Shown here: one piece after another, positions 9,160 through 23,262 of the stretch
Layout: each line of letters opens with the position of its first letter
Position numbering within the stretch: the first letter of the stretch is position 1
DNA from: Eubacterium sp. ER2
Lineage (GTDB): Bacteria > Bacillota > Clostridia > Lachnospirales > Lachnospiraceae
DNA length: 60,134 bases
Direction: 5' to 3'
NCBI RefSeq assembly: GCF_000765215.1
Contig: NZ_JPJE01000033.1
Span: 1 to 60,134, forward strand
Notes under the pieces: generated by a model
The model's input: only the letters and a program-made list of their open reading frames with translations
Databases searched by the model: none
Told to the model about the DNA's origin: nothing
Translations under genes and position numbers: made by a program

Positions 9160-9197
9160 TACTAAAATGAGCCTCATAATCGAGGCTCATTTTAGTA
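9160..9197 (+). terminator. Stem-loop terminator after the GT2 gene
   Basis: Perfect 16-bp inverted repeat (arms 9160-9175 and 9182-9197) with a 6-nt loop; the arm core is GAGCCTC/GAGGCTC. A-rich sequence lies on the left and TTTTAGTAATTTAT on the right, so it may act in both directions. It separates the glycan operon from the L,D-transpeptidase gene. Confidence 0.8.
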
Positions 9198-9213
9198 ATT
9201 TATACAAAAGTCT

Positions 9214-9241
9214 TTGCTTATCTATGGAAAAATGTTATCAT
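9214..9241 (+). promoter_or_regulatory. Probable sigma-A promoter for the L,D-transpeptidase gene
   Basis: TTGCTT (9214-9219), 16-bp spacer, TATCAT (9236-9241) preceded by TGT, which forms an extended -10. It lies just after the terminator and about 37 bp before the start codon. Confidence 0.55.
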
Positions 9242-9277
9242 AAAATTAATTACCGATTTCATCAGGGAGGGAAAGGA

Positions 9278-12200
9278 ATGAAAAAGAAATTATTCAGGGG
9301 AATAGCGCTTGTGTTGGCTTGTTGCCTTCTGTCGAATGTTGCGACGCTTAATGCGGAAGAAACGGTTGGAGAACAGGAGGAACAAATAATTGAAGGCTCC
9401 GGGAAATTGGACAGAGACAATACATCCGAGGCTGCAACACGGGAAGACAAGGACGTAGAGGATGCGGATTCTGAAGAGTTTGCGGATGAAAATGTTGAAG
9501 ATAAAAAGGAAATTGAAGAAAGCAATCAGGAAAATACAGATATTTCTTCTTTGAAGATAAACAATCAAGAGACGAATTTGGACGCCCAGCCATCTGCTGC
9601 TCCACAGAATGTGAAAATTACAGGAAGTGTTGAAGTTGCTGGAGAGGATAAAGATAAAGGCATTTTTACAGTACGAGCTTATGATTTTTCTGATATAGAG
9701 AGTATCTGTGATATAAGGTTTGCTGTTTGGAGTGAAGAGGGAGGACAGGATGATCTGACATGGAATATTGTGGAAAGCAGTTTAGATGCGTCCTTTTATT
9801 CGGATGTAAAGTTGTCGGATCACAATTATACTTTAGGGAAATATATTGTTCATGCATATGCTTTGCTTGAGTCTGGAGGGCAAGTATGGGTGGGGGAAAC
9901 AGAGTATGAAATAGTTGTTGAAAGTTCAGAACTGAAAATTACAGAGGGGACGGACAGTGGAGAATATTTCTTTACTTTAAATGACCTTGTAGTACCGGCG
10001 GGGGAAGAAGCGGTCTTGTTTGCTGTTTGGAGTGAAAATGGCGGACAGGATGACATGGTATGGTACGATGCCAGAAAGCTGAAAAAGGGTTCGTATGAGT
10101 ATGACTGGTCTGTGCAAAACCATAGGGCACTTGGAAAATATAATGTACATGTGTATGTGCGCACAAAAGGTAATACAATGAAAGGAATTGGAGCATATGA
10201 ATTCAATATTGATGCTCCTAAAGTTGCCGAAATTGAGATAAGTGATCGGAATGTAGAGAGGGGAACATTTAGCGCTCGAGTGGAAGGCGTATCAAATGCA
10301 GATCTTGTTAAAGAAATTATGATTCCGGTTTGGAGTAATTCAAACGGACAGGACGATCTCGTGTGGTATGCGGCTCAAAAAGATTTAGACGGGACATATG
10401 AACTTACAGTGGATGTGAAGAACCATAAATACTCAGATGGATCTTACAATATACACGCATATGTGACGGATATTACCGGATATCAATATTTCGTGGGAAG
10501 CACTGAGTGCAGCATGGATATAGAAAAAGGCAGTTTGCAGATCGAAAATATCGGTGATGCAAGATATCGTATTGTATTATCGGATTTTGTCATTCCTGCG
10601 GGCGCATCTGAAGTCCTTTTCCCTGTATGGAGCGAAAATGGCGGACAAGATGACCTTGTATGGTATACTGCAGGCAAGAATGGTGAAGGGGATTATGTGT
10701 GCACAATTAGCCTGGATGACCATAGAGGTCTGGGAAGATATAATGTCCATGCATATGCTAAAAAACAAAACGGGGAACAGATTCCTCTGTTGATTTCAGG
10801 ATTTGAAACAGAAGTACCCATTGTCAATACTTTCGAGGTGGAAAAAGTAGATGAAGAGGCAGGATGCTTTACAGTAAAAGTTTCTGATATTGAAAATGAG
10901 GATCTTGTTAAAAACATAAAAATTCCTGTATGGTCTAAAAATGATCAAAGTGATCTCATCTGGTATAATGCAAGAAAAAATTTGGCCGGTGAATATATTA
11001 TTGATGTACATATCAAGGATCATCGATATAACATAGGGGAGTATAGTATTCATTGCTATGTAGAAGATATTACTGGCATGTTGAACGGAATTGGATCAAG
11101 AAGCTGTGATATGTCAGCAAAAGTAGAAGCAATAGAAGCGGAAGATATAGATGACTCGGAGGAGACTTTTGAAATCAATATATCCGGGGTTAATGTTCCG
11201 GCAGGTGAACGAGAGTTGCGAGTTGCTGTGTGGGGGGATAAAGATGGTCAAAATGATCTTACATGGCATACATTAAGCCGGCAGTCAAATGGAAATTATT
11301 CATTAGATGTTGAGGTGCGCGATCACTGTGAATTGGGATTGTATAACGTACATGTATACTGCGTGACCAAAGGCGGAGGAATGTTTGGACTTGGAACGAC
11401 AACCTTTAATGTATCTAATGTCCCTCTGTTTTCAAATGTGACAATTTCAGAGATAAACGGGAATAAAGGTACATTTCGAGTGACTATTTCAGGTCTTCTT
11501 GCCTCTTCAGGTATCCAGAAGGTTGAAATACCCATGTGGTGTTCTGATAATCAGAATGATATATACTGGTATACGGCCTCGAGATTATCCGAAGGTTCTT
11601 ATACTACAACGATGAACGTTGTGAATCATCGTCACCATTTTGGGGATTATAAAGTCCATGTATATGTCACAATGGGGAATGGAGTGAGAGTATGTGTCAG
11701 TTCATCAAATATCCAGAATATCAGCCCCAATAATTATCTGTACAATGAGTATATAAGTGACACACAAAGAAGAGTTTGGCTTCTTGGAGTTGACGGAGAG
11801 CTTGTTCAGTTCCCTACATGGAGCGATGAACAGGGGCAGGATGATATTGTCTGGTATGATGGAACCAATAATGGAAATGGCACATGGAGTGCGCTTGTAG
11901 ATAGTGCAAACCATAGCAATGGCGGAAATTATACAACTCATGCATATGTAACTAAAAGCGGTGTGAGGCAGTCGGTAGGGTCGACAAATTATTCATTAAT
12001 TAAAATACCTACAGATCTGGAAATGATGAGGCTGAAAGCCAATTCCTATTCAAGTACCACAGGATATATTGCCCTTGTAAACAGGACAACCCATAAAGTT
12101 GGCATTTTTCAAGGATGGCAGGGCAATTGGAACTGTATTCAGTACTGGGATTGTTCAGATGGAAAGGCAAGTACCCCGACTGTGGAAGGGGTATTCCGAG

Positions 12201-12433
12201 TGGGAAGCAGAGGATATTATTTCTATTCGGGAGATGCGATTTGTTACTGGTGGACGCAGTTTTACGGAGATTATCTGTTCCATTCGGTGCTTTACAACAG
12301 ATATAATGGCTCGCTAATGGATGGCAGATTGGGTATGGGGCTTTCCCACGGCTGTGTGAGATTAAATATTAATAATGCAAAGTGGATTTATGACACCATT
12401 CCTTCCGGGACGACGGTGGTGGTGTATCATTAG
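9278..12433 (+). CDS. Secreted L,D-transpeptidase with eight Bsp-like repeats
   Basis: A 1051-residue modular exported enzyme. A signal peptide (MKKKLFRGIALVLACCLL, cut after about residue 26) is followed by an acidic, disordered linker to about residue 110. Then come eight GBS-Bsp-like repeats, each with a core like PVWSENGGQDDLVWY and a following DH...G.Y.VH.Y strand. The C-terminal domain (about 925-1051) is a YkuD L,D-transpeptidase: an HSVLYN segment precedes SHGCVRL, with the catalytic Cys near residue 1026. It would form 3-3 crosslinks or attach proteins to peptidoglycan outside the cell. The start at 9278 follows GGGAGGGAAAG; an in-frame upstream start would lie inside the terminator stem. 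Repeat number seven has MWCSDNQNDIYWY, close to the second repeat of the glucosaminidase at the window start. Substrate is inferred. Confidence 0.93.
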   Translation: MKKKLFRGIALVLACCLLSNVATLNAEETVGEQEEQIIEGSGKLDRDNTSEAATREDKDVEDADSEEFADENVEDKKEIEESNQENTDISSLKINNQETNLDAQPSAAPQNVKITGSVEVAGEDKDKGIFTVRAYDFSDIESICDIRFAVWSEEGGQDDLTWNIVESSLDASFYSDVKLSDHNYTLGKYIVHAYALLESGGQVWVGETEYEIVVESSELKITEGTDSGEYFFTLNDLVVPAGEEAVLFAVWSENGGQDDMVWYDARKLKKGSYEYDWSVQNHRALGKYNVHVYVRTKGNTMKGIGAYEFNIDAPKVAEIEISDRNVERGTFSARVEGVSNADLVKEIMIPVWSNSNGQDDLVWYAAQKDLDGTYELTVDVKNHKYSDGSYNIHAYVTDITGYQYFVGSTECSMDIEKGSLQIENIGDARYRIVLSDFVIPAGASEVLFPVWSENGGQDDLVWYTAGKNGEGDYVCTISLDDHRGLGRYNVHAYAKKQNGEQIPLLISGFETEVPIVNTFEVEKVDEEAGCFTVKVSDIENEDLVKNIKIPVWSKNDQSDLIWYNARKNLAGEYIIDVHIKDHRYNIGEYSIHCYVEDITGMLNGIGSRSCDMSAKVEAIEAEDIDDSEETFEINISGVNVPAGERELRVAVWGDKDGQNDLTWHTLSRQSNGNYSLDVEVRDHCELGLYNVHVYCVTKGGGMFGLGTTTFNVSNVPLFSNVTISEINGNKGTFRVTISGLLASSGIQKVEIPMWCSDNQNDIYWYTASRLSEGSYTTTMNVVNHRHHFGDYKVHVYVTMGNGVRVCVSSSNIQNISPNNYLYNEYISDTQRRVWLLGVDGELVQFPTWSDEQGQDDIVWYDGTNNGNGTWSALVDSANHSNGGNYTTHAYVTKSGVRQSVGSTNYSLIKIPTDLEMMRLKANSYSSTTGYIALVNRTTHKVGIFQGWQGNWNCIQYWDCSDGKASTPTVEGVFRVGSRGYYFYSGDAICYWWTQFYGDYLFHSVLYNRYNGSLMDGRLGMGLSHGCVRLNINNAKWIYDTIPSGTTVVVYH

Positions 12434-12585: not shown

Positions 12586-15500
12586 ATGAATTACTCAAAA
12601 AGACGGAAATATATTACCGGGCTCCGGCGAATATTATTGTGTCTTATGATTTGCACAATAGTGTTTAGCGACTATTCTTTTGCGTACGCTTCTTCAACAG
12701 AAAGTAATATGGATGAGACAAAGGAAGAGGATTCATTAGACAGCACAGGAATCTCTGAAACGGACGTTGCTTCTGATACAGAAGAAGATTCCGATAGTTT
12801 ATCGGAAGATCAGGGAACAGAAGATGATGCAGATGATGCGGAAAATGCGCAGAACCCGATTTATACAGGCGAAAGCGCCAGTGAATTCAGTGATAATATA
12901 CAAAGCGATGAGCTGCAAGAGACTTCAGTCAGTGATGACTCAAGCACTCAGATTATGCGGCTTGCTCCGCAGGAAGAAAAGACATTGGATGATTTGGCTA
13001 TGCAGAACAGTTCGGTTCTGGCGGATGGTGAATATGTGATTGGTTCCCGTCTGTCCAGTAGACAGGTCATTGATGTTGAGAGCGGATCGAATAATGATGG
13101 CGCTAATGTACAAATATATGAAACAAACACTACAAAGGCACAGAAATGGGAAGTTGTGCATGATGAAAAGGGATATATTACTTTCATTAATGCCGGCTCC
13201 GGGAAAGTGCTGGATGTAGCCAGCGGATATAATGTGGCCGGGACCAATGTACAGCAATATACTTCCAATGAAAGCAGGGCGCAGAAGTGGATCGTATTAA
13301 ATAATGGGGACGGTACCTTTACTATTAAATCGGCAGTTGGAAATGGAATGGTCTTAAATGTTACGGGGATGACAGCTGCCAATTCATCCAATGTCGATAT
13401 TGACTCTGGTGACGGAAGTGATAATCAGAAGTTTCTGTTTTATTCCACTAAAGCGGAGATATCAAATAGTGGAAAGACCATTGCAGATGGTACATATATG
13501 ATTAGCAGTAACGGCAGTTATTTGAAAAATGTGGGCAGCAAAATACAAAGTAATGCTGGTAAACAGAATGATCTGACTCAATATTTTTTTATTTCTTATA
13601 ATGAGTCAAAAGGATATTACACAATAAGGTCATGCAGTGCTGATCGAAATTTGGATGTTGACAGAGGAGATACTGTACCCGGCGCACTTGTGACAGCGGC
13701 ACCGGAAAATACTGAAGCGCATCAACAGTTCTGGGATATTCTGCAAAATGAAGATTATACATATACAATTACCAGCGCAGCCAATGGTCAAATGCTGGGG
13801 CAAGATCAAGCGGCAACAAATTCTATTGTAACCGTGCCGGGAGAAGATACTCGAAGCTGTACATGGACATTGGAAGAGGCTCCTTTTTGTTGGTCGGAAG
13901 AAGAGATGGACAGCCTTGCCGCAATAAAGATCGGACAGCCGGATATAGCTGCGGGAACATATCAGATTACGTCAGTGTTGAACGAAAAAATGTCATTAGA
14001 TGTTACAAATGGTTCAAAAGCCACTGGCGCGAAAGTACAGTTATATGAATCTAATGAAACTTTAGCTCAACGGTGGAAAGTTGAATATACGGATGACGGA
14101 TATGCGAAGATAGTCAGTGCCAACTCCGGGAAAGTTCTTGATGTAGACGGAGCATCTATCCAAAATGGTGTCCAGATACAGCAATATGATTGGAATAAAA
14201 CAAGAGCGCAGAAATGGCTTCCTATCAAGAATGACAATGGAACATATACCTTTTATTCTGCATTGGGACGAGGATTGGTCCTGGATGTGGCTTCGGGAAT
14301 AGCAGTGAATGGAGCAAAAGTGCAGACATATACCTGGAACGGAACAAATGCACAAATGTTTTGTTTTTATAATACAGAGGCCAATGTTCCTTCTCAGGGA
14401 AAAGTTATTGAAGACGGGTACTATACAATTGCGCTTTCCGCAGATAGCAATATGGTTATGGATTTGCATAATGGAGACGCAGCAGACGGAACACCCATGC
14501 AGATTTATAGTTCTAACGGAACATTAGCACAGTGTTTCTGGGTCGAATATCATGAAGACGGTTACTATAGTATAAAAATAGTAAAAACCGGCAAAGTAGT
14601 TGAACTGACTCGAGGTGGCCTTGTTCCCGGAACAGTAGTGCAGCAGGAAGCTGAAGATAATACGATAAAACAGCGCTGGATCATATCGGACACCGGGGAC
14701 GGTTCTTACAGAATAATTTCAGCTGCCAATGGATTGAGTATGGATGCGGGAGATATATCACAGGGAAGAACAATTACTACTCAGAACATTTCTGACGTGT
14801 CTTCTCAAAAGTGGAGTTTTATAGAGTATAAGCCGTCAATTGCAGAAGGATGCTATATGATCAGCACGGCTATTAATTCAAATAAAGTTGTTGATATTGC
14901 AGGTGGTTCATTGTCTGTTGGAGGAAATGCTCAGATTTATACCGATAATAAAAGCCTGGCACAAAAATGGCAGGTCAGAACGGTTGAAGAAGGGATTATA
15001 TCCTTGCAGAATCTTGGTTCAGGATTGTATTTAACAGATGTAAATGGAAACGTTTGCCAAATGAATAATTCCGGAAATGTTACAGATGCACAATGGGTTT
15101 TAGGTTTGCAGTTGGGAGATGGATTTACTTTAACGAATAGAGCTTCGGGGAAAAGATTAGATTTAAGTGGAGCTAATACCGCGGATCAGACCAATATAGG
15201 AACCTATGACGAGAATGGGACAAAAGCGCAAGCGTGGACTTTCAACGCTGTCAGTGTATTAGAGCCGGGATTTTATGAGTTCGCTCCATTATCTAATACC
15301 GGTTTGCGCCTGGAAGTTGCAGGAGGATCAAGAGATAATTTCGCAAATGTACAGGTCTATTCATCTAATGGAACTCTTTCACAACGGTGGTGGGTGAAGA
15401 GCGTGGGCGATGGCTGGTATACCTTGACGGCATGCTGCTCGGCAAAAGTCTTAGATATCAGTGGTGGAAGTGCGGCATTGAATGCAAATATTCAACAATA

Positions 15501-16218
15501 TGAGGCAAATGGAAGCAATGCGCAAAAGTGGCGCTTTGAAATGGGGGAAAATGGTATTGTTTTAAAATCTGCTTTGGGAACAGTAGCAGATGTTGTCGGC
15601 AGCTCAGGACAATCTGGCACAAATGTGTGGGCATATGAGCAGAATGGAAGTTCGGGACAGGAGTGGCGTGTTTTCTCTGCGGCAACTCCTGGAAAAATAG
15701 GATGGCAGAATCCTGCGGGATATCCGCAGGTGAGTTCGAGAACGGTTATGCTGCCCAGCTATTGTACGGGCTATTTCACTTATGTAACACCTTCCAGAAT
15801 TGCGATAGATGCGTCCAGAGAGGATTGTGTAAATGCATTTGTTGCAAGAGCATATGAATATTTAGGAACGCGATATATTGAGCCCTGGTCAAGCTGGCCG
15901 GGTGACGCTGTGGATTGCTCTGGACTGGTTTTACAGTGTTTATATGCGACTGGAATGGATATGGGAATTTATAATCCATATAACCATAGATGGTTGCCGG
16001 GACAAACATATAATTCTATGAATTGGCTGAACAATAATACATTTATGCCTGTGGGGCTAAATAATCTGCAGCGGGGAGATTTGGTGTATTACAGAAATCA
16101 TGTTGCAATTTATATAGGCGGGGGACAAATTATTGACTCCTGGCCTGGACAGGGTGTGACAATACAAGGATTGTATAGCCGAGGTAATGTGATAGGAGTG
16201 CAGAGGCCGTTTGTATAA
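12586..16218 (+). CDS. Secreted NlpC/P60 peptidase with six ricin-like lectin modules
   Basis: A 1210-residue exported wall enzyme. A twin-basic start and a hydrophobic signal (about 14-36) are followed by an acidic linker to about residue 135. Six modules then begin near residues 144, 300, 455, 608, 752 and 892, each opening with a (D/A/P)G.Y.I motif and containing QIY....A.QKW and GKVLDV repeats, the pattern of ricin B-type beta-trefoil lectins; module two is degenerate. The C-terminal domain (about 1070-1210) is NlpC/P60: catalytic Cys in DCSGLV, His in NHVAIYIG, then GGQIIDSWP. It probably cuts peptide stems while the lectin modules hold wall or surface glycan. GAGGGAGGGAAAG sets the start. 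Catalytic class is confident; sugar specificity is unknown. Confidence 0.93.
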   Translation: MNYSKRRKYITGLRRILLCLMICTIVFSDYSFAYASSTESNMDETKEEDSLDSTGISETDVASDTEEDSDSLSEDQGTEDDADDAENAQNPIYTGESASEFSDNIQSDELQETSVSDDSSTQIMRLAPQEEKTLDDLAMQNSSVLADGEYVIGSRLSSRQVIDVESGSNNDGANVQIYETNTTKAQKWEVVHDEKGYITFINAGSGKVLDVASGYNVAGTNVQQYTSNESRAQKWIVLNNGDGTFTIKSAVGNGMVLNVTGMTAANSSNVDIDSGDGSDNQKFLFYSTKAEISNSGKTIADGTYMISSNGSYLKNVGSKIQSNAGKQNDLTQYFFISYNESKGYYTIRSCSADRNLDVDRGDTVPGALVTAAPENTEAHQQFWDILQNEDYTYTITSAANGQMLGQDQAATNSIVTVPGEDTRSCTWTLEEAPFCWSEEEMDSLAAIKIGQPDIAAGTYQITSVLNEKMSLDVTNGSKATGAKVQLYESNETLAQRWKVEYTDDGYAKIVSANSGKVLDVDGASIQNGVQIQQYDWNKTRAQKWLPIKNDNGTYTFYSALGRGLVLDVASGIAVNGAKVQTYTWNGTNAQMFCFYNTEANVPSQGKVIEDGYYTIALSADSNMVMDLHNGDAADGTPMQIYSSNGTLAQCFWVEYHEDGYYSIKIVKTGKVVELTRGGLVPGTVVQQEAEDNTIKQRWIISDTGDGSYRIISAANGLSMDAGDISQGRTITTQNISDVSSQKWSFIEYKPSIAEGCYMISTAINSNKVVDIAGGSLSVGGNAQIYTDNKSLAQKWQVRTVEEGIISLQNLGSGLYLTDVNGNVCQMNNSGNVTDAQWVLGLQLGDGFTLTNRASGKRLDLSGANTADQTNIGTYDENGTKAQAWTFNAVSVLEPGFYEFAPLSNTGLRLEVAGGSRDNFANVQVYSSNGTLSQRWWVKSVGDGWYTLTACCSAKVLDISGGSAALNANIQQYEANGSNAQKWRFEMGENGIVLKSALGTVADVVGSSGQSGTNVWAYEQNGSSGQEWRVFSAATPGKIGWQNPAGYPQVSSRTVMLPSYCTGYFTYVTPSRIAIDASREDCVNAFVARAYEYLGTRYIEPWSSWPGDAVDCSGLVLQCLYATGMDMGIYNPYNHRWLPGQTYNSMNWLNNNTFMPVGLNNLQRGDLVYYRNHVAIYIGGGQIIDSWPGQGVTIQGLYSRGNVIGVQRPFV

Positions 16219-17667: not shown

Positions 17668-18282
17668 ATGAAATCCAAACTGATAATAGCAATTTTACTT
17701 TTAACCCTTGTCTTTTCTCTGGCCGCCTGTGGCAGGAATTCCGGAGATAGCCAGGAGCCTTCCGATAGTTCGGATACCCAGACGGAGGAGCAGAAAGAAG
17801 AGGAACCGGAAGAGACAGAAGAGCCGGAGGCGGAAGAGGAGCAGCCCTCTCAGGATGCGACGAATACAGACACACAGACTCCTGCTCAGGAGCCGGTGGC
17901 TGAGACTGCGACGATTACTGTCTTCTACAGCAATGCGGACTCCACGGCTTTTGAGTCTTCAGAAGTGCAGATAGCTTCCCTCTCTCCCGAGGCTGTTCTT
18001 GAGGCTTTGGTTTCGCAGGGGGCGCTGACAGCCGACGTGGCGGAAAATTCCTTTACTATGAACACAGTGGATGGGAAGGAGAGCATAGAGCTGGATCTGA
18101 ATGGCGCCTTTGCTACATATGTATCTAACATGGGGACGACAGGCGAGTACTATACAGTGGGTGCCCTTGTCAATACATTCCTGGATGCCTACGAGTGTGA
18201 GCAGATTCGCATCACGGTAGATGGGGATACGCTGTCCACAGGACATGCCGAGTATCCGGGCTATCTGTCCAGATTTGAATAA
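17668..18282 (+). CDS. GerMN-domain lipoprotein
   Basis: A 204-residue lipoprotein. The signal peptide ends in a lipobox (SLAAC, Cys near residue 21), so it should be lipid-anchored on the outer face of the membrane. A long Glu/Pro/Thr-rich linker (about 25-88) is followed by a GerMN-type domain (about 90-204): ITVFYSN, LSPEAVLEALV, FTMNTVDGKE, LDLNGAF and a closing ITVDG motif. GerMN domains occur in spore-germination protein GerM and in wall-associated lipoproteins. The molecular role is not settled; with spore genes elsewhere in the window a sporulation or envelope role is plausible. It has its own promoter and is 17 bp upstream of the MerR-methyltransferase gene, so the two may be cotranscribed. 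Confidence 0.82.
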   Translation: MKSKLIIAILLLTLVFSLAACGRNSGDSQEPSDSSDTQTEEQKEEEPEETEEPEAEEEQPSQDATNTDTQTPAQEPVAETATITVFYSNADSTAFESSEVQIASLSPEAVLEALVSQGALTADVAENSFTMNTVDGKESIELDLNGAFATYVSNMGTTGEYYTVGALVNTFLDAYECEQIRITVDGDTLSTGHAEYPGYLSRFE

Positions 18283-18299: not shown

Positions 18300-19481
18300 A
18301 TGAAGAAACCAGGCTACTATTCATCCGGCGAGTTTGCCCGCATGGCTCAGGTGACCCTGCGGACGATCCGCTACTATGACAAACAGAACATTTTAAAGCC
18401 CTCGTATGTGACTGATGCGGGGGCACGTTTTTATACAGACGAGGATTTTGCCAGACTGCAGCAGATCCTCCTTTTGAAGTATCTGGGGTTTTCTCTGGAC
18501 GATATCCGTGAGATGACCATTGCGGATACGGATTACCACTTTATGCTCAATTCCTTGGACATTCAGAAGAAGCTGGTGCAGGACCGGATCGAGCAGATGC
18601 AGCTTGTGGAGCAGGCCATCGAGGACACGACAGCTGCCATCCGGGAGGAGCATGTGGTGGACTGGAGCCGGATGCTGGGGCTGATCCATCTGACGGGCAT
18701 GGAAAAGAGCTTTAAGAACCAGTATAAGAGCGCCACCAATATCTCAGCCAGGATCAATCTGCACAGCCTTTATTCTCAGAACAGGCAGGGGTGGTTTCCC
18801 TGGATCTATGAGAAGCTGCGTGTTGAGAGCGGGATGAAGATACTGGAGCTGGGATGTGGGGACGGTACCCTCTGGACGGAGAACAAGGAGAAACTTCCGG
18901 CTGATGTGGCAGTCACGCTCTCTGATGTCTCGGAGGGCATGCTCCGGGATGCCAGGCGCGCTATAGGGACGGAGGATACGAGGTTTGCTTTCAACAGCTT
19001 TGACTGTCATCATATTCCCTATGACAATGAGACCTTTGACCTGGTGATCGCGAACCATGTGCTTTTCTACTGCCAGGATATCCCGGCTGTCTGCCGGGAG
19101 GTGAAAAGAGTGCTAAGGCCTGGCGGCAGATTCATCTGCAGCACCTACGGGCGGGAGCATATGAAGGAGGTCGGTCAGCTTGTCCAGGAGTTTGACGAAA
19201 GGATTGCCCTGTCTGCGGATAAGCTGTATGAGAAGTTTGGCAAGGAGAACGGCAAAGAGCTGCTTGGAGAGAGCTTCGCTGAAGTGGTGTGGCAGCAGTA
19301 CGGGGACGCCCTTGTGGTCACGGAGCCGGAGCCCCTCATTTCCTATGTGCTCTCCTGCCATGGGAACCAGGGGCAGTACATCGGGGAAAAATACAATGAC
19401 TTCCGGGCGTTTGTGAAGAAGAAAACCGCCGGGGGATTCAGGATCACAAAGGATGCCGGGATATTTATTTGTGCAAAATAA
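18300..19481 (+). CDS. MerR-family regulator fused to a SAM-dependent methyltransferase
   Basis: A 393-residue fusion. Residues 6-75 are a MerR winged helix (SSGEFARMAQVTLRTIRYYD, then ARFYTDEDFARLQQI), followed by a dimerising helix (about 88-115). Residues 170-300 are a class I methyltransferase: motif I LELGCGDGTLW near 185, then SDVSEGMLRDARR, FDLVIANHVLFY and VLRPGGRFICSTYG. In MerR proteins the C-terminal part normally senses an effector; here a SAM-binding enzyme takes that place, so the protein may couple methyltransfer, or SAM or substrate binding, to promoter control. A perfect dyad in a 19-bp promoter spacer lies 30-60 bp downstream, before rmlA. Domain calls are confident; the effector and methylated substrate are unknown. 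Confidence 0.88.
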   Translation: MKKPGYYSSGEFARMAQVTLRTIRYYDKQNILKPSYVTDAGARFYTDEDFARLQQILLLKYLGFSLDDIREMTIADTDYHFMLNSLDIQKKLVQDRIEQMQLVEQAIEDTTAAIREEHVVDWSRMLGLIHLTGMEKSFKNQYKSATNISARINLHSLYSQNRQGWFPWIYEKLRVESGMKILELGCGDGTLWTENKEKLPADVAVTLSDVSEGMLRDARRAIGTEDTRFAFNSFDCHHIPYDNETFDLVIANHVLFYCQDIPAVCREVKRVLRPGGRFICSTYGREHMKEVGQLVQEFDERIALSADKLYEKFGKENGKELLGESFAEVVWQQYGDALVVTEPEPLISYVLSCHGNQGQYIGEKYNDFRAFVKKKTAGGFRITKDAGIFICAK

Positions 19482-19510
19482 CCAAATTATTACAAAATGT
19501 TAAAAAACAC

Positions 19511-19541
19511 TTGAAGGTGACCTAAGGTCACCTTTTATAAT
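19511..19541 (+). promoter_or_regulatory. MerR-style promoter/operator upstream of rmlA
   Basis: TTGAAG (19511-19516), 19-bp spacer, TATAAT (19536-19541). A perfect 9-bp dyad (arms 19514-19522 and 19526-19534, core GGTGACC/GGTCACC) fills the spacer. A 19-bp spacer with a central dyad is the known MerR-family operator design, and a MerR-type gene ends 29 bp upstream. The same dyad could instead be a terminator. Confidence 0.5.
19514..19536 (+). terminator. Alternative reading of the same dyad: short terminator
   Basis: A 9-bp perfect stem with a 3-nt TAA loop followed by TTTTAT could terminate the MerR-methyltransferase transcript. The T-run is short. This competes with, or coexists with, the operator reading. 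Confidence 0.45.
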
Positions 19542-19622: not shown

Positions 19623-20519
19623 ATGAAGGGTATTATTTTAGCGGGAGGATCCGGCACAAGGCTCTATCCTCTGACAATGGTCACATCCAAACAGCTTCTG
19701 CCGATCTACGACAAGCCGATGATCTACTATCCCATGTCGGTTCTTATGAACGCGGGCATCCGGGACATTCTGATCATCTCCACACCGCAGGATACGCCAA
19801 GGTTTAAAGAGCTGTTGGGAGATGGACATCAGTTTGGCGTGCAGCTTTCTTACGAAGTGCAGCCAAGCCCGGACGGACTGGCACAGGCGTTTATCATTGG
19901 TGAGAAATTTATTGGCGATGATTGCGTGGCTATGGTGCTGGGGGATAACATTTTTGCGGGCCACGGCCTTAAGAAAAGATTAAAGGCAGCTGTGGAAAAT
20001 GCGGAGTCCGGCAAGGGCGCCACAGTGTTCGGCTACTATGTGGATGACCCGGAGCGGTTTGGCATTGTGGAGTTCAACCAGGAGGGTAAGGCTGTCTCCA
20101 TAGAGGAGAAGCCGGAGCATCCCAAGAGCAACTACTGCGTGACCGGCCTTTATTTCTATGACAACAAAGTGGTGGATTACGCGAAAAACCTGAAGCCAAG
20201 CGCCAGAGGAGAGCTGGAGATCACAGACCTGAACCGCATTTACCTGGAGGCGGGACAGCTCAATGTGGAGCTTCTTGGACAGGGCTTCACCTGGCTGGAC
20301 ACGGGAACTCATGAGAGCCTGGTGGACGCCACCAATTTTGTCAAGACTATGGAGACTCACCAGCACAGGAAGATTGCCTGCCTGGAGGAGATCGCCTACT
20401 TAAACGGATGGATTTCCAAAGAGGACGTGATGGAAGTGTACGAGGTTCTGAAAAAGAACCAGTACGGTCAGTATCTGAAGGACGTGCTGGACGGGAAATA
20501 CCAGGAAAATCTCTATTGA
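19623..20519 (+). CDS. rmlA: Glucose-1-phosphate thymidylyltransferase
   Basis: A 298-residue enzyme making dTDP-glucose from dTTP and glucose-1-phosphate, the first step of dTDP-L-rhamnose synthesis. The nucleotide-binding motif [11 protein letters not shown] lies at residues 8-18; [14 protein letters not shown], the GDNIF metal site and [10 protein letters not shown] are all typical of RmlA, and the length matches the family. AAGGAGG sits well before the ATG. First gene of an rmlA-B-D-C operon with a possible MerR-type promoter upstream. Confidence 0.97.
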
Positions 20520-20578: not shown

Positions 20579-21610
20579 ATGAATATTATTGTAACCGGCG
20601 GAGCTGGATTTATCGGAAGCAACTTTGTATTTCACATGCTGGACAAGTACCCGGACTATCGCATCATCTGTCTGGACTGTCTGACATATGCGGGAAACCT
20701 GTCCACTCTGGCTCCTGTCATGGACAATCCCAACTTCCGCTTTGTGAAGGCCAGCATCACGGACCGTGAGGCTGTGTACAAGCTCTTTGAGGAGGAGCAT
20801 CCGGACATGGTAGTCAACTTTGCGGCTGAGAGCCATGTGGATCGCTCCATCGAGAACCCGGAGGTCTTCCTTGACACCAACATCAAGGGAACAGCTGTGC
20901 TCATGGACGCCTGCCGCAAGTACGGCATCAAGAGATACCATCAGGTATCCACAGACGAGGTGTACGGCGACCTGCCTCTGGACAGGCCGGATCTGTTCTT
21001 CACAGAGGAGACTCCCATCCACACAAGCAGCCCCTACAGCGCCTCCAAGGCTTCCGCAGACCTTCTTGTGCTGGCCTACCACAGGACATACGGCCTGCCG
21101 GTGACCATCAGCCGCTGCTCCAACAACTATGGCCCCTACCATTTCCCGGAGAAGCTGATCCCGCTGATGATCGCCAATGCGCTCAATGACAAACCTCTGC
21201 CGGTATACGGGGCAGGGGAGAATGTCAGGGACTGGCTCTACGTGGAGGACCACTGCAAGGCCATCGACCTGATTATCCACAAGGGCCGCGTGGGCGAGGT
21301 GTACAACATCGGCGGCCACAATGAGATGAAGAACATTGACATTGTAAAGCTGATCTGCAAGGAGCTGGGCAAGCCGGAGAGCCTCATCGTTCACGTGGAG
21401 GACAGAAAGGGCCACGATATGCGCTACGCCATCGACCCCACAAAGATCCACAACGAGCTGGGCTGGCTGCCGGAGACAAAGTTCGCAGACGGCATCAAGA
21501 AGACCATCCAGTGGTACCTGGACAACAAGGAGTGGTGGGAGACCATCATTTCCGGAGAGTATCAGAACTATTATGAGAAGATGTATGGAAACAGGGAGGA
21601 GATCAAATAA
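20579..21610 (+). CDS. rmlB: dTDP-glucose 4,6-dehydratase
   Basis: A 343-residue short-chain dehydrogenase/reductase that converts dTDP-glucose to dTDP-4-keto-6-deoxyglucose with bound NAD. The Rossmann motif is GGAGFIGSNF; the catalytic motif STDEVYGDL is followed by YSASKA, and RCSNNYGPYHFPEKLIP is diagnostic. An AAAGGAGAAG site favours the ATG at 20579 over an in-frame start 27 bp upstream; the result matches the usual family length. It sits 59 bp after rmlA, and its stop overlaps the rmlD start. Confidence 0.97.
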   Translation: MNIIVTGGAGFIGSNFVFHMLDKYPDYRIICLDCLTYAGNLSTLAPVMDNPNFRFVKASITDREAVYKLFEEEHPDMVVNFAAESHVDRSIENPEVFLDTNIKGTAVLMDACRKYGIKRYHQVSTDEVYGDLPLDRPDLFFTEETPIHTSSPYSASKASADLLVLAYHRTYGLPVTISRCSNNYGPYHFPEKLIPLMIANALNDKPLPVYGAGENVRDWLYVEDHCKAIDLIIHKGRVGEVYNIGGHNEMKNIDIVKLICKELGKPESLIVHVEDRKGHDMRYAIDPTKIHNELGWLPETKFADGIKKTIQWYLDNKEWWETIISGEYQNYYEKMYGNREEIK

Positions 21611-22551
21611 TGAAGGTATTTGTGACCGGTGTTGCAGGACAGCTTGGACATGATGTGATGAATGAACTGGCAGGACGGGGATACGAAGGCGTGGGCTCTG
21701 ACCTGAAGGAGGAGTACAGCGGCATTAAGGACGGCACTCCGGTGGAGATCATGCCCTATGTGCCCATGGATATCACGGATCAGGCCTCTGTAGAGAAGGT
21801 GCTCTCCGAGGTGCGGCCGGACGTGGTGGTGCACTGCGCCGCGTGGACGGCAGTAGACCTGGCAGAGGATGAGGATAAAAAGGAGAAGGTCCGGGCCATC
21901 AATGTGGACGGCACAAAATATATTGCCCAGATGTGCAAAAAGCTGGACTGCAAGATGATCTATCTGAGCACGGACTACGTCTTTGACGGACAGGGGGAGA
22001 CGCCCTGGGAGCCGGACTGCAAGGATTACAAGCCCTTAAATGTATATGGGGAGACAAAGCTGGCAGGAGAGCTGGCTGTGTCTGAGACGCTGGAGAAATA
22101 TTTCATCGTCCGCATCGCCTGGGTGTTTGGTAAAAACGGAAAGAATTTCATCAAGACCATGCTGAATGTGGGCAAGACTCACGACACGCTGACGGTAGTG
22201 AACGACCAGATCGGGACTCCGACCTACACCTTTGACCTGGCAAGGCTTCTGGTGGATATGCTGGAGACAGAGAAGTATGGCTACTATCACGCCACAAATG
22301 AGGGCGGTTACATCAGCTGGTATGATTTCACAAAGGAGATCTTCCGCCAGGCAGTGGAACTGGGACACACAGAGTACAGTGAGGACCGTCTCACGGTGAA
22401 GCCGGTGACCACGGCGGAGTACGGCGTGTCCAAGGCGGCCCGTCCCTTCAACAGCAGGCTGGACAAGAGCAAGCTTGTGGAGAACGGATTTACTCCTCTC
22501 CCCACATGGCAGGACGCTCTTAATAGATATCTGAGAGAAATCGAGTTTTAA
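21610..22551 (+). CDS. rmlD: dTDP-4-dehydrorhamnose reductase
   Basis: A 313-residue reductase for the last step, dTDP-4-keto-L-rhamnose to dTDP-L-rhamnose, using NAD(P)H. The N-terminal motif GVAGQLGHDV binds the cofactor; CAAWTAVDLAE, STDYVFDG and the catalytic YGETKLAGE follow. The ATG overlaps the rmlB stop by one base (TAATG), which implies translational coupling. The insert around residues 30-45 (LKEEYSGIKDGTPV) is longer than in many RmlD proteins. Confidence 0.95.
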   Translation: MKVFVTGVAGQLGHDVMNELAGRGYEGVGSDLKEEYSGIKDGTPVEIMPYVPMDITDQASVEKVLSEVRPDVVVHCAAWTAVDLAEDEDKKEKVRAINVDGTKYIAQMCKKLDCKMIYLSTDYVFDGQGETPWEPDCKDYKPLNVYGETKLAGELAVSETLEKYFIVRIAWVFGKNGKNFIKTMLNVGKTHDTLTVVNDQIGTPTYTFDLARLLVDMLETEKYGYYHATNEGGYISWYDFTKEIFRQAVELGHTEYSEDRLTVKPVTTAEYGVSKAARPFNSRLDKSKLVENGFTPLPTWQDALNRYLREIEF

Positions 22552-22565
22552 GGAGGCTTACAGCA

Positions 22566-23174
22566 ATGGGACAGATCAAAGTTGAGAAAAATGCAGGCGG
22601 CATCCAGGGACTCTGCGTCATCGAGCCGGCAGTGCACGGGGACGCCAGAGGGTATTTCATGGAGACGTACAACCAGAGAGACATGGAGGAGAACGGCCTT
22701 GACATGGTCTTTGTGCAGGACAACCAGTCCTGCTCCACAAAGGGTGTCCTGCGGGGACTTCACTTCCAGAAGGAATTCCCTCAGGGCAAGCTGGTCAGGG
22801 TCATCAAGGGCTCTGTCTTCGATGTGGCGGTGGATCTTAGGAGTGGCAGCGAGACATACGGCAAGTGGTTCGGCATTGAGCTGACAGAGGAGAATAAGAA
22901 GCAGTTCTACATTCCCGAGGGCTTTGCCCACGGCTTCCTGGTTCTCAGCGATGTGGCTGAGTTCTGCTACAAGTGCACGGACTTCTATCATCCGGGAGAT
23001 GAGGGCGGACTGGCCTGGAACGACCCGGAGATCGGCATTACATGGCCCCAGCTGGAGGGCGAGTACCAGGGAAGCGCTTCCGCGGAGGGGTACCATCTGG
23101 CGGACGGCACGGCTCTGAACTTAAGCGACAAGGATCAGAAGTGGGCCGGGCTGAAGGATACGTTCCACTTTTAA
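22566..23174 (+). CDS. rmlC: dTDP-4-dehydrorhamnose 3,5-epimerase
   Basis: A 202-residue cupin enzyme that epimerises the 4-keto sugar before RmlD acts. LRGLHFQ carries the catalytic His, and IPEGFAHGFLVLS and CTDFYHPGDEGGLAWNDP are family hallmarks. A TAAGGAGG site lies 14 bp after rmlD. It ends the operon and is followed by a strong bidirectional stem-loop. The gene order A-B-D-C gives a complete dTDP-rhamnose pathway, so the cell almost certainly makes a rhamnose-containing surface polymer. Confidence 0.96.
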   Translation: MGQIKVEKNAGGIQGLCVIEPAVHGDARGYFMETYNQRDMEENGLDMVFVQDNQSCSTKGVLRGLHFQKEFPQGKLVRVIKGSVFDVAVDLRSGSETYGKWFGIELTEENKKQFYIPEGFAHGFLVLSDVAEFCYKCTDFYHPGDEGGLAWNDPEIGITWPQLEGEYQGSASAEGYHLADGTALNLSDKDQKWAGLKDTFHF

Positions 23175-23219: not shown

Positions 23220-23262
23220 AAAATGAGACGTAATACTTTTTAAAAGTGTTACGTCTCATTTT
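23220..23262. terminator. Bidirectional terminator between rmlC and the convergent GT2
   Basis: A near-perfect stem of about 20 bp (left arm from 23220, right arm ending 23262) with one G-T pair; the core is GAGACGTAA/TTACGTCTC. A-run on the left and T-run on the right allow use from both strands. Confidence 0.88.

Follow-up and report, generated by a model that had tools for sequence, protein, structure and literature searches.

Regulators of the Mta/BmrR/TipA group, known from Bacillus and Streptomyces, carry drug-binding C-terminal domains and serve resistance. CarA and CarH of Myxococcus are MerR proteins fused to a B12-binding domain, and CarH represses at an operator of a different kind. 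We know of no characterised MerR protein with a class-I methyltransferase as its sensor domain. A drug-binding C-terminal domain and a role in resistance are also described for AlbA/TipA (PMC10189885, in excerpt). In a search of 5.39 million open papers, no report of a link between a MerR-methyltransferase protein and the rml genes was found, nor any published regulator of dTDP-rhamnose supply in gut Lachnospiraceae; PMC3954586 has a single mention of MerR, in a set of genes that clinical isolates lack. The present analysis indicates that a MerR protein fused to a methyltransferase very probably switches the rml genes through a promoter whose over-long spacer is filled by a dyad.

In the window, the whole stretch of 60,134 nucleotides analysed here, the gene of the MerR-methyltransferase fusion (18300..19481, plus strand, 393 amino acids) stands ahead of the rmlABDC operon. 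The first gene of the operon, rmlA (19623..20519, with its ATG at 19623), codes for glucose-1-phosphate thymidylyltransferase (TIGR01207), rmlB (20579..21610) for dTDP-glucose 4,6-dehydratase (TIGR01181), rmlD (21610..22551) for dTDP-4-dehydrorhamnose reductase (TIGR01214) and rmlC (22566..23174) for dTDP-4-dehydrorhamnose 3,5-epimerase (TIGR01221); all lie on the plus strand and each was named by an NCBIfam equivalog model scoring above its cut-off. Past rmlC a terminator scan found a long hairpin with a 20-pair stem (23220..23262, no strand assigned), which would probably be the terminator between the rml genes and a convergent glycosyltransferase gene. Judging from the neighbouring sugar-transferase and LytR-CpsA-Psr genes, it is plausible that the rml genes supply a surface rhamnan. 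Elsewhere in the window, positions 9167-12433 encode a protein in which an L,D-transpeptidase (YkuD) domain comes after eight GBS-Bsp-like repeats, and positions 12586-16218 encode about eleven ricin-type lectin stretches with an NlpC/P60 domain at the end. A gene for a GerMN-domain lipoprotein (17668-18282) stops 17 bp ahead of the fusion gene, and such a gene also precedes the fusion in the relatives L032, L048, L038, L051-L053 and L035. In G015, where no close fusion was found, GerMN-like sequence seems by eye to run directly into rmlA (L106). The lipoprotein gene could possibly be a co-transcribed partner of the fusion.

The promoter that had been predicted between the fusion gene and rmlA was read directly at 19511-19541. 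It consists of the -35 hexamer TTGAAG (19511..19516), a spacer of 19 bp (19517..19535), which is 2 bp above the usual 17, and the -10 hexamer TATAAT (19536..19541), all on the plus strand. The original prediction placed a perfect 9-bp dyad in the spacer. The dyad AAGGTGACCT-A-AGGTCACCTT (19514..19534, 21 bp, no strand assigned), a candidate operator, is indeed perfect, but its arms are of 10 bp (19514-19523 and 19525-19534, with one central base), and it does not lie wholly inside the spacer because the left arm overlaps the final three bases of the -35 hexamer. A standard promoter scan did not list this site, as only spacers of 16-18 bp were allowed. In the 3.27-Mb assembly (74 contigs) the dyad 21-mer occurs at one place when up to 3 mismatches are allowed, and likewise a loose 31-base pattern of promoter and dyad. 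A weight matrix built from relatives gives the element of the window a score of 52.9, while the best of 149 base-shuffled upstream regions reaches 3.2. Autoregulation through the element was also considered; none was seen in the window, the sole genomic site lying before rmlA.

The fusion protein has a MerR winged helix-turn-helix at residues 7-72, a long helix at about 79-117, a class-I SAM methyltransferase domain at about 164-300 and the motif SCHGNQ at 352-357 near the C-terminus. The codons of residues 18-30 (VTLRTIRYYDKQN), which cover the recognition helix and the residues after it, lie at 18351..18389 on the plus strand. Pfam searches matched MerR_1 (3.9e-18) and Methyltransf_11 (8.3e-20); the winged helix-turn-helix scored 65.8 bits with PF13411 (cut-off 21.6) and 37.8 with PF00376 (cut-off 28.2), and its nearest solved relatives are the MerR-family regulator 3hh0, MtaN, BmrR and TipA. 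The AlphaFold model has a mean pLDDT of 79 and is good over most of the methyltransferase domain and poor at residues 61-150 and 351-360, the latter being the SCHGNQ region. In this single-chain model one helix at 79-117 is placed where the coiled-coil helix of a MerR protein is expected, with a pLDDT there of about 56-67. According to Pfam, the alignment and Foldseek, the C-terminal domain has a Rossmann-like class-I methyltransferase fold with a GxGxG SAM loop; the fusion proteins keep this loop, which reads LExGCGxG in most of them. Foldseek matched many small-molecule methyltransferases and pointed to the general methyltransferase fold, with no specific substrate among its matches.

CHGNQ near the C-terminus is present in 102 of 102 aligned fusion proteins, all picked at 45% identity or more, and also in L270, L267, L278 and L265, which are remoter or unaligned copies found by rml-type genes or in genomes with rml genes. 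The paralogs L271 and L285, near which no rml genes were seen, have PGNA in place of CHGNQ, and L020-L022 are without it. The methyltransferase domain would be expected to bind SAM together with a ligand related to the pathway. A more tentative idea, to which we give rather less than even odds, is that the domain would be catalytically active and at the same time the sensor of its own pathway. It would bind or methylate a dTDP-sugar or an intermediate on the way to rhamnan, with SAM as competitor, and the flux through surface-rhamnose synthesis would act in feedback on the rml promoter by way of a MerR-type twist of the DNA. If the protein were bifunctional in this manner, a class-I methyltransferase would be the sensory part of a MerR switch.

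The distribution of fusion and element was determined in an even set of 396 Lachnospiraceae genomes that are at least 90% complete. The fusion was called at E <= 1e-60 in 78 genomes and rmlA at E <= 1e-140 in 145 genomes at 149 places, and all 149 upstream regions were scanned with a weight matrix from 27 unique elements at a score cut-off of 9. The element was found at 60 of 69 rmlA upstreams in genomes with the fusion as compared to 2 of 80 in genomes without it; of the nine places lacking it, three belong to a second rmlA copy whose partner in the same genome does have the element. Counted per genome, a first tally gave 74 of the 77 fusion genomes examined against 2 of 79 rmlA genomes in which no fusion was found (Fisher p = 6e-38, a value that ignores kinship). 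One of the three misses, G339, has the element before rmlBD on another contig, and G431, a fusion genome outside the first tally, was settled later; with both included the element stands at rml genes in 76 of the 78 fusion genomes. The two in which no element was seen are G398, where the contig starts 92 bases before the gene, and G183, where the fusion match is a paralog of 34% identity with no rml genes on the 7.8 kb inspected. Among the 107 genera with rmlA, the element was present in 49 of 49 with the fusion and in 0 of 58 without it; genus labels were taken from the sample lists, and two of the 49 are the genera of the exceptions G223 and G395. In the draft assemblies of G223 and G395 the element is present and no fusion gene was found, and each has a genus mate with the fusion.

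The element is placed at the rml genes in various arrangements. Fusion loci from named organisms, Blautia, Dorea, Faecalicatena and Claveliimonas among them, number 47. In 42 of these an element with 24 or more matches out of 31 is present within the locus itself, standing before rmlA or, in L061-L063, before rmlB. The remaining five (L036, L046, L070, L071 and L076) have one genomic pattern match each, before rmlA. The named locus closest to the fusion of the window is that of Lachnoclostridium sp. An118, with a protein 95% identical. When genes or long stretches come between fusion and rmlA (L033/L005, L043, L012), the element remains with rmlA; in genomes whose rml operon starts with the fusion gene, the element precedes that gene (G056, G083, G197, G248, G357, G385, G288, G417, G176 and G039); and in G018 and G431 the element is flanked by divergent genes. 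In nine genomes fusion gene and element are unlinked, being separated by some 7 kb or more or placed on different contigs (G007, G211, G434, G450, G445, G308, G147, G148 and G149, the status of G147-G149 being judged from contig sizes and content); in all nine the element is at rml and none was seen at the regulator gene. It should be noted that one contig labelled Bacteroidales (L065) carries a Lachnospiraceae-type fusion with an rml operon and is probably a mis-binned metagenome contig.

Second sites were searched for in 77 of the 78 fusion genomes with a strict pattern that recovers a site in 62. In G385 such a site precedes an rmlC that stands apart, in G186 it precedes rmlD (both genes were named by NCBIfam), and an earlier pattern had given one in G056, again before a separate rmlC. 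G043 has one site before the fusion gene and another before rmlA. Further matches in G052 C55 (L127), G324 C101 and G256 C89 look like chance, one scan of their neighbours being empty. Relatives of the fusion at 39-48% identity (L270, L267 and L278) adjoin an rmlB-type gene, and the element, with scores of 23-27, lies before that gene. As rmlB is divergent in G372 and G194 (44-47%), the target there may be another dTDP-sugar pathway.

The operator was found to change together with the recognition helix. The usual dyad core is mostly GACC..GGTC or GACG..CGTC, and GCCC..GGGC occurs in 4 of 87 loci that have both fusion and element. These four loci alone among the 102 aligned proteins have K20 K21 with E28 H29, and the other 98 of 98 have R21. 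In two further genomes the operator was known first and the helix was checked afterwards; G351 has K20 K21, A28 instead of E, and H29, and G431 has K20 K21, E28 and H29. A pattern search of 397 genomes added two rml-linked GCCC..GGGC cases, G533 and G480, which belong to one genus with fusion proteins 92% identical and which both have K20 K21 E28 H29. In total, K20 K21 with H29 accompanies 8 of 8 rml-linked GCCC..GGGC operators, four of them checked after the operator was known, and changes at residues 20, 21, 28 and 29 accompany changes at operator columns 10 and 18. L016, L218 and L281, whose core TCCC..CGTC has C at column 10 alone, keep R21. The same search of 397 genomes gave four sites that are not at rml genes. 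A fusion paralog unconnected with rml follows the site in L344 and a different MerR gene follows it in L346, and K21 is present in both proteins; around the sites in L343 and L345 a motif search revealed no MerR gene. A dyad promoter, TTGACCTTGCCC..GGGGCAAGG, was also noted at L271:1637-1667, upstream of a fusion paralog that is not at rml and shares about 32-34% identity; this paralog has K at the recognition-helix position, which fits the recognition code.

By alignment to the CueR profile, residues 21 and 28 are positions 14 and 21 of the published MerR code, if the numbering of that work is the profile's minus one; operator columns 10 and 18 we take, by comparison with known promoters, to be its sites 6 and 13. 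Among 776 protein/site pairs of metal-regulator MerR proteins, helix position 14 correlates most with site positions 6 and 13, and C-K, G-K and T-R are over-represented at position 14 and C-E and G-E at position 21 (PMC5045206, in excerpt). The co-change of helix and operator appears to be in line with this MerR code. Several independent origins of the KK helix were considered, for which the trees need 3-4 changes, but an AU test on six of the eight cases did not reject a single KK clade (p = 0.465), and the GCCC/KK state may have one origin.

Spacing was surveyed as the best TTG...TATAAT-like pairs within 250 bp of rmlA under strict hexamer rules, with ties counted repeatedly. A spacing of 19 bp was best or joint best in 46 of 69 upstreams with the fusion against 3 of 80 without, and a spacing of 17 bp in 3 of 69 against 23 of 80; no promoter was found under these rules in 17 of 69 and 47 of 80, respectively. 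The dyad-filled spacer of the target promoter is in the range of 19-20 bp that marks promoters of MerR activators. G001 and G004, of the same genus as the window, have rmlA (92%), and no fusion gene was found in either, G001 being just 82% complete. In both, the boxes before rmlA form a promoter TTGAAG-17 bp-TATAAT; of the dyad, the right arm is still recognisable and the left arm is destroyed. In the RmlA tree they are sister to G007 with weak support (82/84), and since their RmlA proteins are near-identical sisters they count as one event. A mer promoter cut to a 17-bp spacer gives strong constitutive expression that is nearly independent of MerR (PMC11049809, in excerpt). By analogy, the 17-bp promoter of G001/G004 could be the remnant expected after loss of a MerR-type activator.

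An alternative reading is that the dyad is just an intrinsic terminator of the fusion gene, with the hexamers there by coincidence. In the window the dyad RNA does fold well, forming a 3-nt loop on a stem of 10 pairs, one a G-U, at -14.6 kcal/mol and z -3.7; none of 200 shuffles folds as stably, and TTTT follows. Across relatives the signature of a terminator, a conserved GC stem and T-run closing the upstream gene, is not what was found. Among 86 unique elements with a score of at least 21, a cut-off that partly selects for these columns, TTG and TAnnnT are present in 86 of 86, whereas 36 have an RNA stem weaker than -5 kcal/mol and just 39 have TTTT after the dyad; in the first tally, TTG is likewise present in each of the 74 genomes that carry the element. 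At least 7 of 10 dyad pairs are kept in 67 of the 86, and paired columns change together, 12/16 being G-C in 39 and C-G in 17, and 10/18 A-T in 76 and C-G in 5. The original prediction had named a stem retained in relatives without the hexamers or the 19-bp spacing as evidence against a regulated promoter; when the gap was aligned, the opposite pattern was seen, hexamers and 19-bp spacing being kept where stem and T-run decay. Moreover, the position of the element does not follow the 3' end of the fusion gene, for the element accompanies rml even where the regulator gene is distant or sits on a different contig, and it is found between divergent genes or upstream of the regulator. It is also missing in 77 of 79 rmlA genomes without the regulator. 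Termination as the main role is hence rejected as extremely unlikely.

Joint inheritance of regulator and element as one block with rml would account for their co-occurrence, and fusion and rml genes are adjacent in most genomes. We regard this as next to negligible, given that the nine unlinked genomes keep the element at rml, that second sites stand at separate rmlC and rmlD genes, that dyad and regulator are both missing in G001/G004, and that an element without the regulator occurs in just 2 of 79 genomes. Control by another MerR protein of the genome is a very unlikely alternative. Promoters of the same class are found before other MerR genes (e.g. L023, L026 and L274), several of them generic, so that the fusion is not alone in having this class of motif. 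Yet matches to other MerR proteins are common across a set of 145 genomes, with and without the fusion, while the rml element follows the fusion, and in 8 of 8 cases the recognition helix that changes along with the operator is that of the fusion itself. A last alternative is that the fusion acts as a repressor only, which would be released by the ligand of the methyltransferase and would not twist DNA. Unliganded MerR proteins also repress (PMC11049809, in excerpt), and the sign of control is not readable from sequence alone. A pure repressor would have no need of the retained 19-bp spacer, and promoters without the regulator, where seen, are mostly of 17 bp (23 of 80, with none found in 47), as if the 19-bp form needs an activator. 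Repression alone is on this basis judged unlikely.

Our preferred reading, to which we assign a probability of roughly 0.87, is that the fusion is a dedicated regulator of dTDP-L-rhamnose synthesis, which would sit as a dimer on the dyad and activate rmlABDC by ligand-triggered untwisting. The architecture of promoter and dyad, its conservation, its tie to the fusion and its placement at rml are supported by the sequences, and the distortion of DNA and the activation are inferred from the MerR family. The predicted control of rml by the fused regulator gains from the fact that the element tracks the fusion gene even when unlinked and that the operator changes with the recognition helix. The MerR domains of the dimer would occupy the 21-bp dyad between -35 and -10 boxes spaced 2 bp too far, and in the resting state the rml promoter would be poor or held closed. 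A ligand, for which SAM/SAH, a dTDP-sugar and a wall-glycan intermediate are candidates, would then occupy the methyltransferase domain, and the liganded dimer would bend and untwist the spacer such that RNA polymerase with the main sigma factor could use both boxes and transcribe rmlABDC. One protein, one 31-bp element and one pathway are tied together in 49 sampled genera, and dTDP-rhamnose presumably feeds surface glycans in many gut Lachnospiraceae.

The fusion shares features with several described systems. As in CarA and CarH, the MerR part is joined to a cofactor-binding, enzyme-like domain, which binds B12 in those proteins and is a SAM-methyltransferase here. The C-terminal domain has the same fold and GxGxG motif I as OxaG, RebM, MitM, YcgJ and phosphoethanolamine N-methyltransferase, but identity to the fusion is just 13-22% in the 50 best Foldseek rows. 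With CueR and the MerR metal regulators it shares a dyad in an over-long spacer, that of mer being 19 bp (PMC11049809, in excerpt), and a recognition code at the same helix positions (PMC5045206, in excerpt); it differs from them in that no metal-binding domain was found in the fusion and in that the regulated genes are biosynthetic. Mta, BmrR and TipA are among the nearest solved relatives of its winged helix-turn-helix and putative coiled coil (MtaN 7e-17, BmrR 7e-14, TipA 1e-13), and AlbA, like the rml promoter, has a dyad in a 19-bp spacer (PMC10189885, in excerpt). Where this group carries a drug-binding domain of the GyrI-like/TipAS kind, the C-terminus of the fusion matches Methyltransf_11/25, a class-I SAM methyltransferase, and its predicted target is the synthesis of dTDP-rhamnose.
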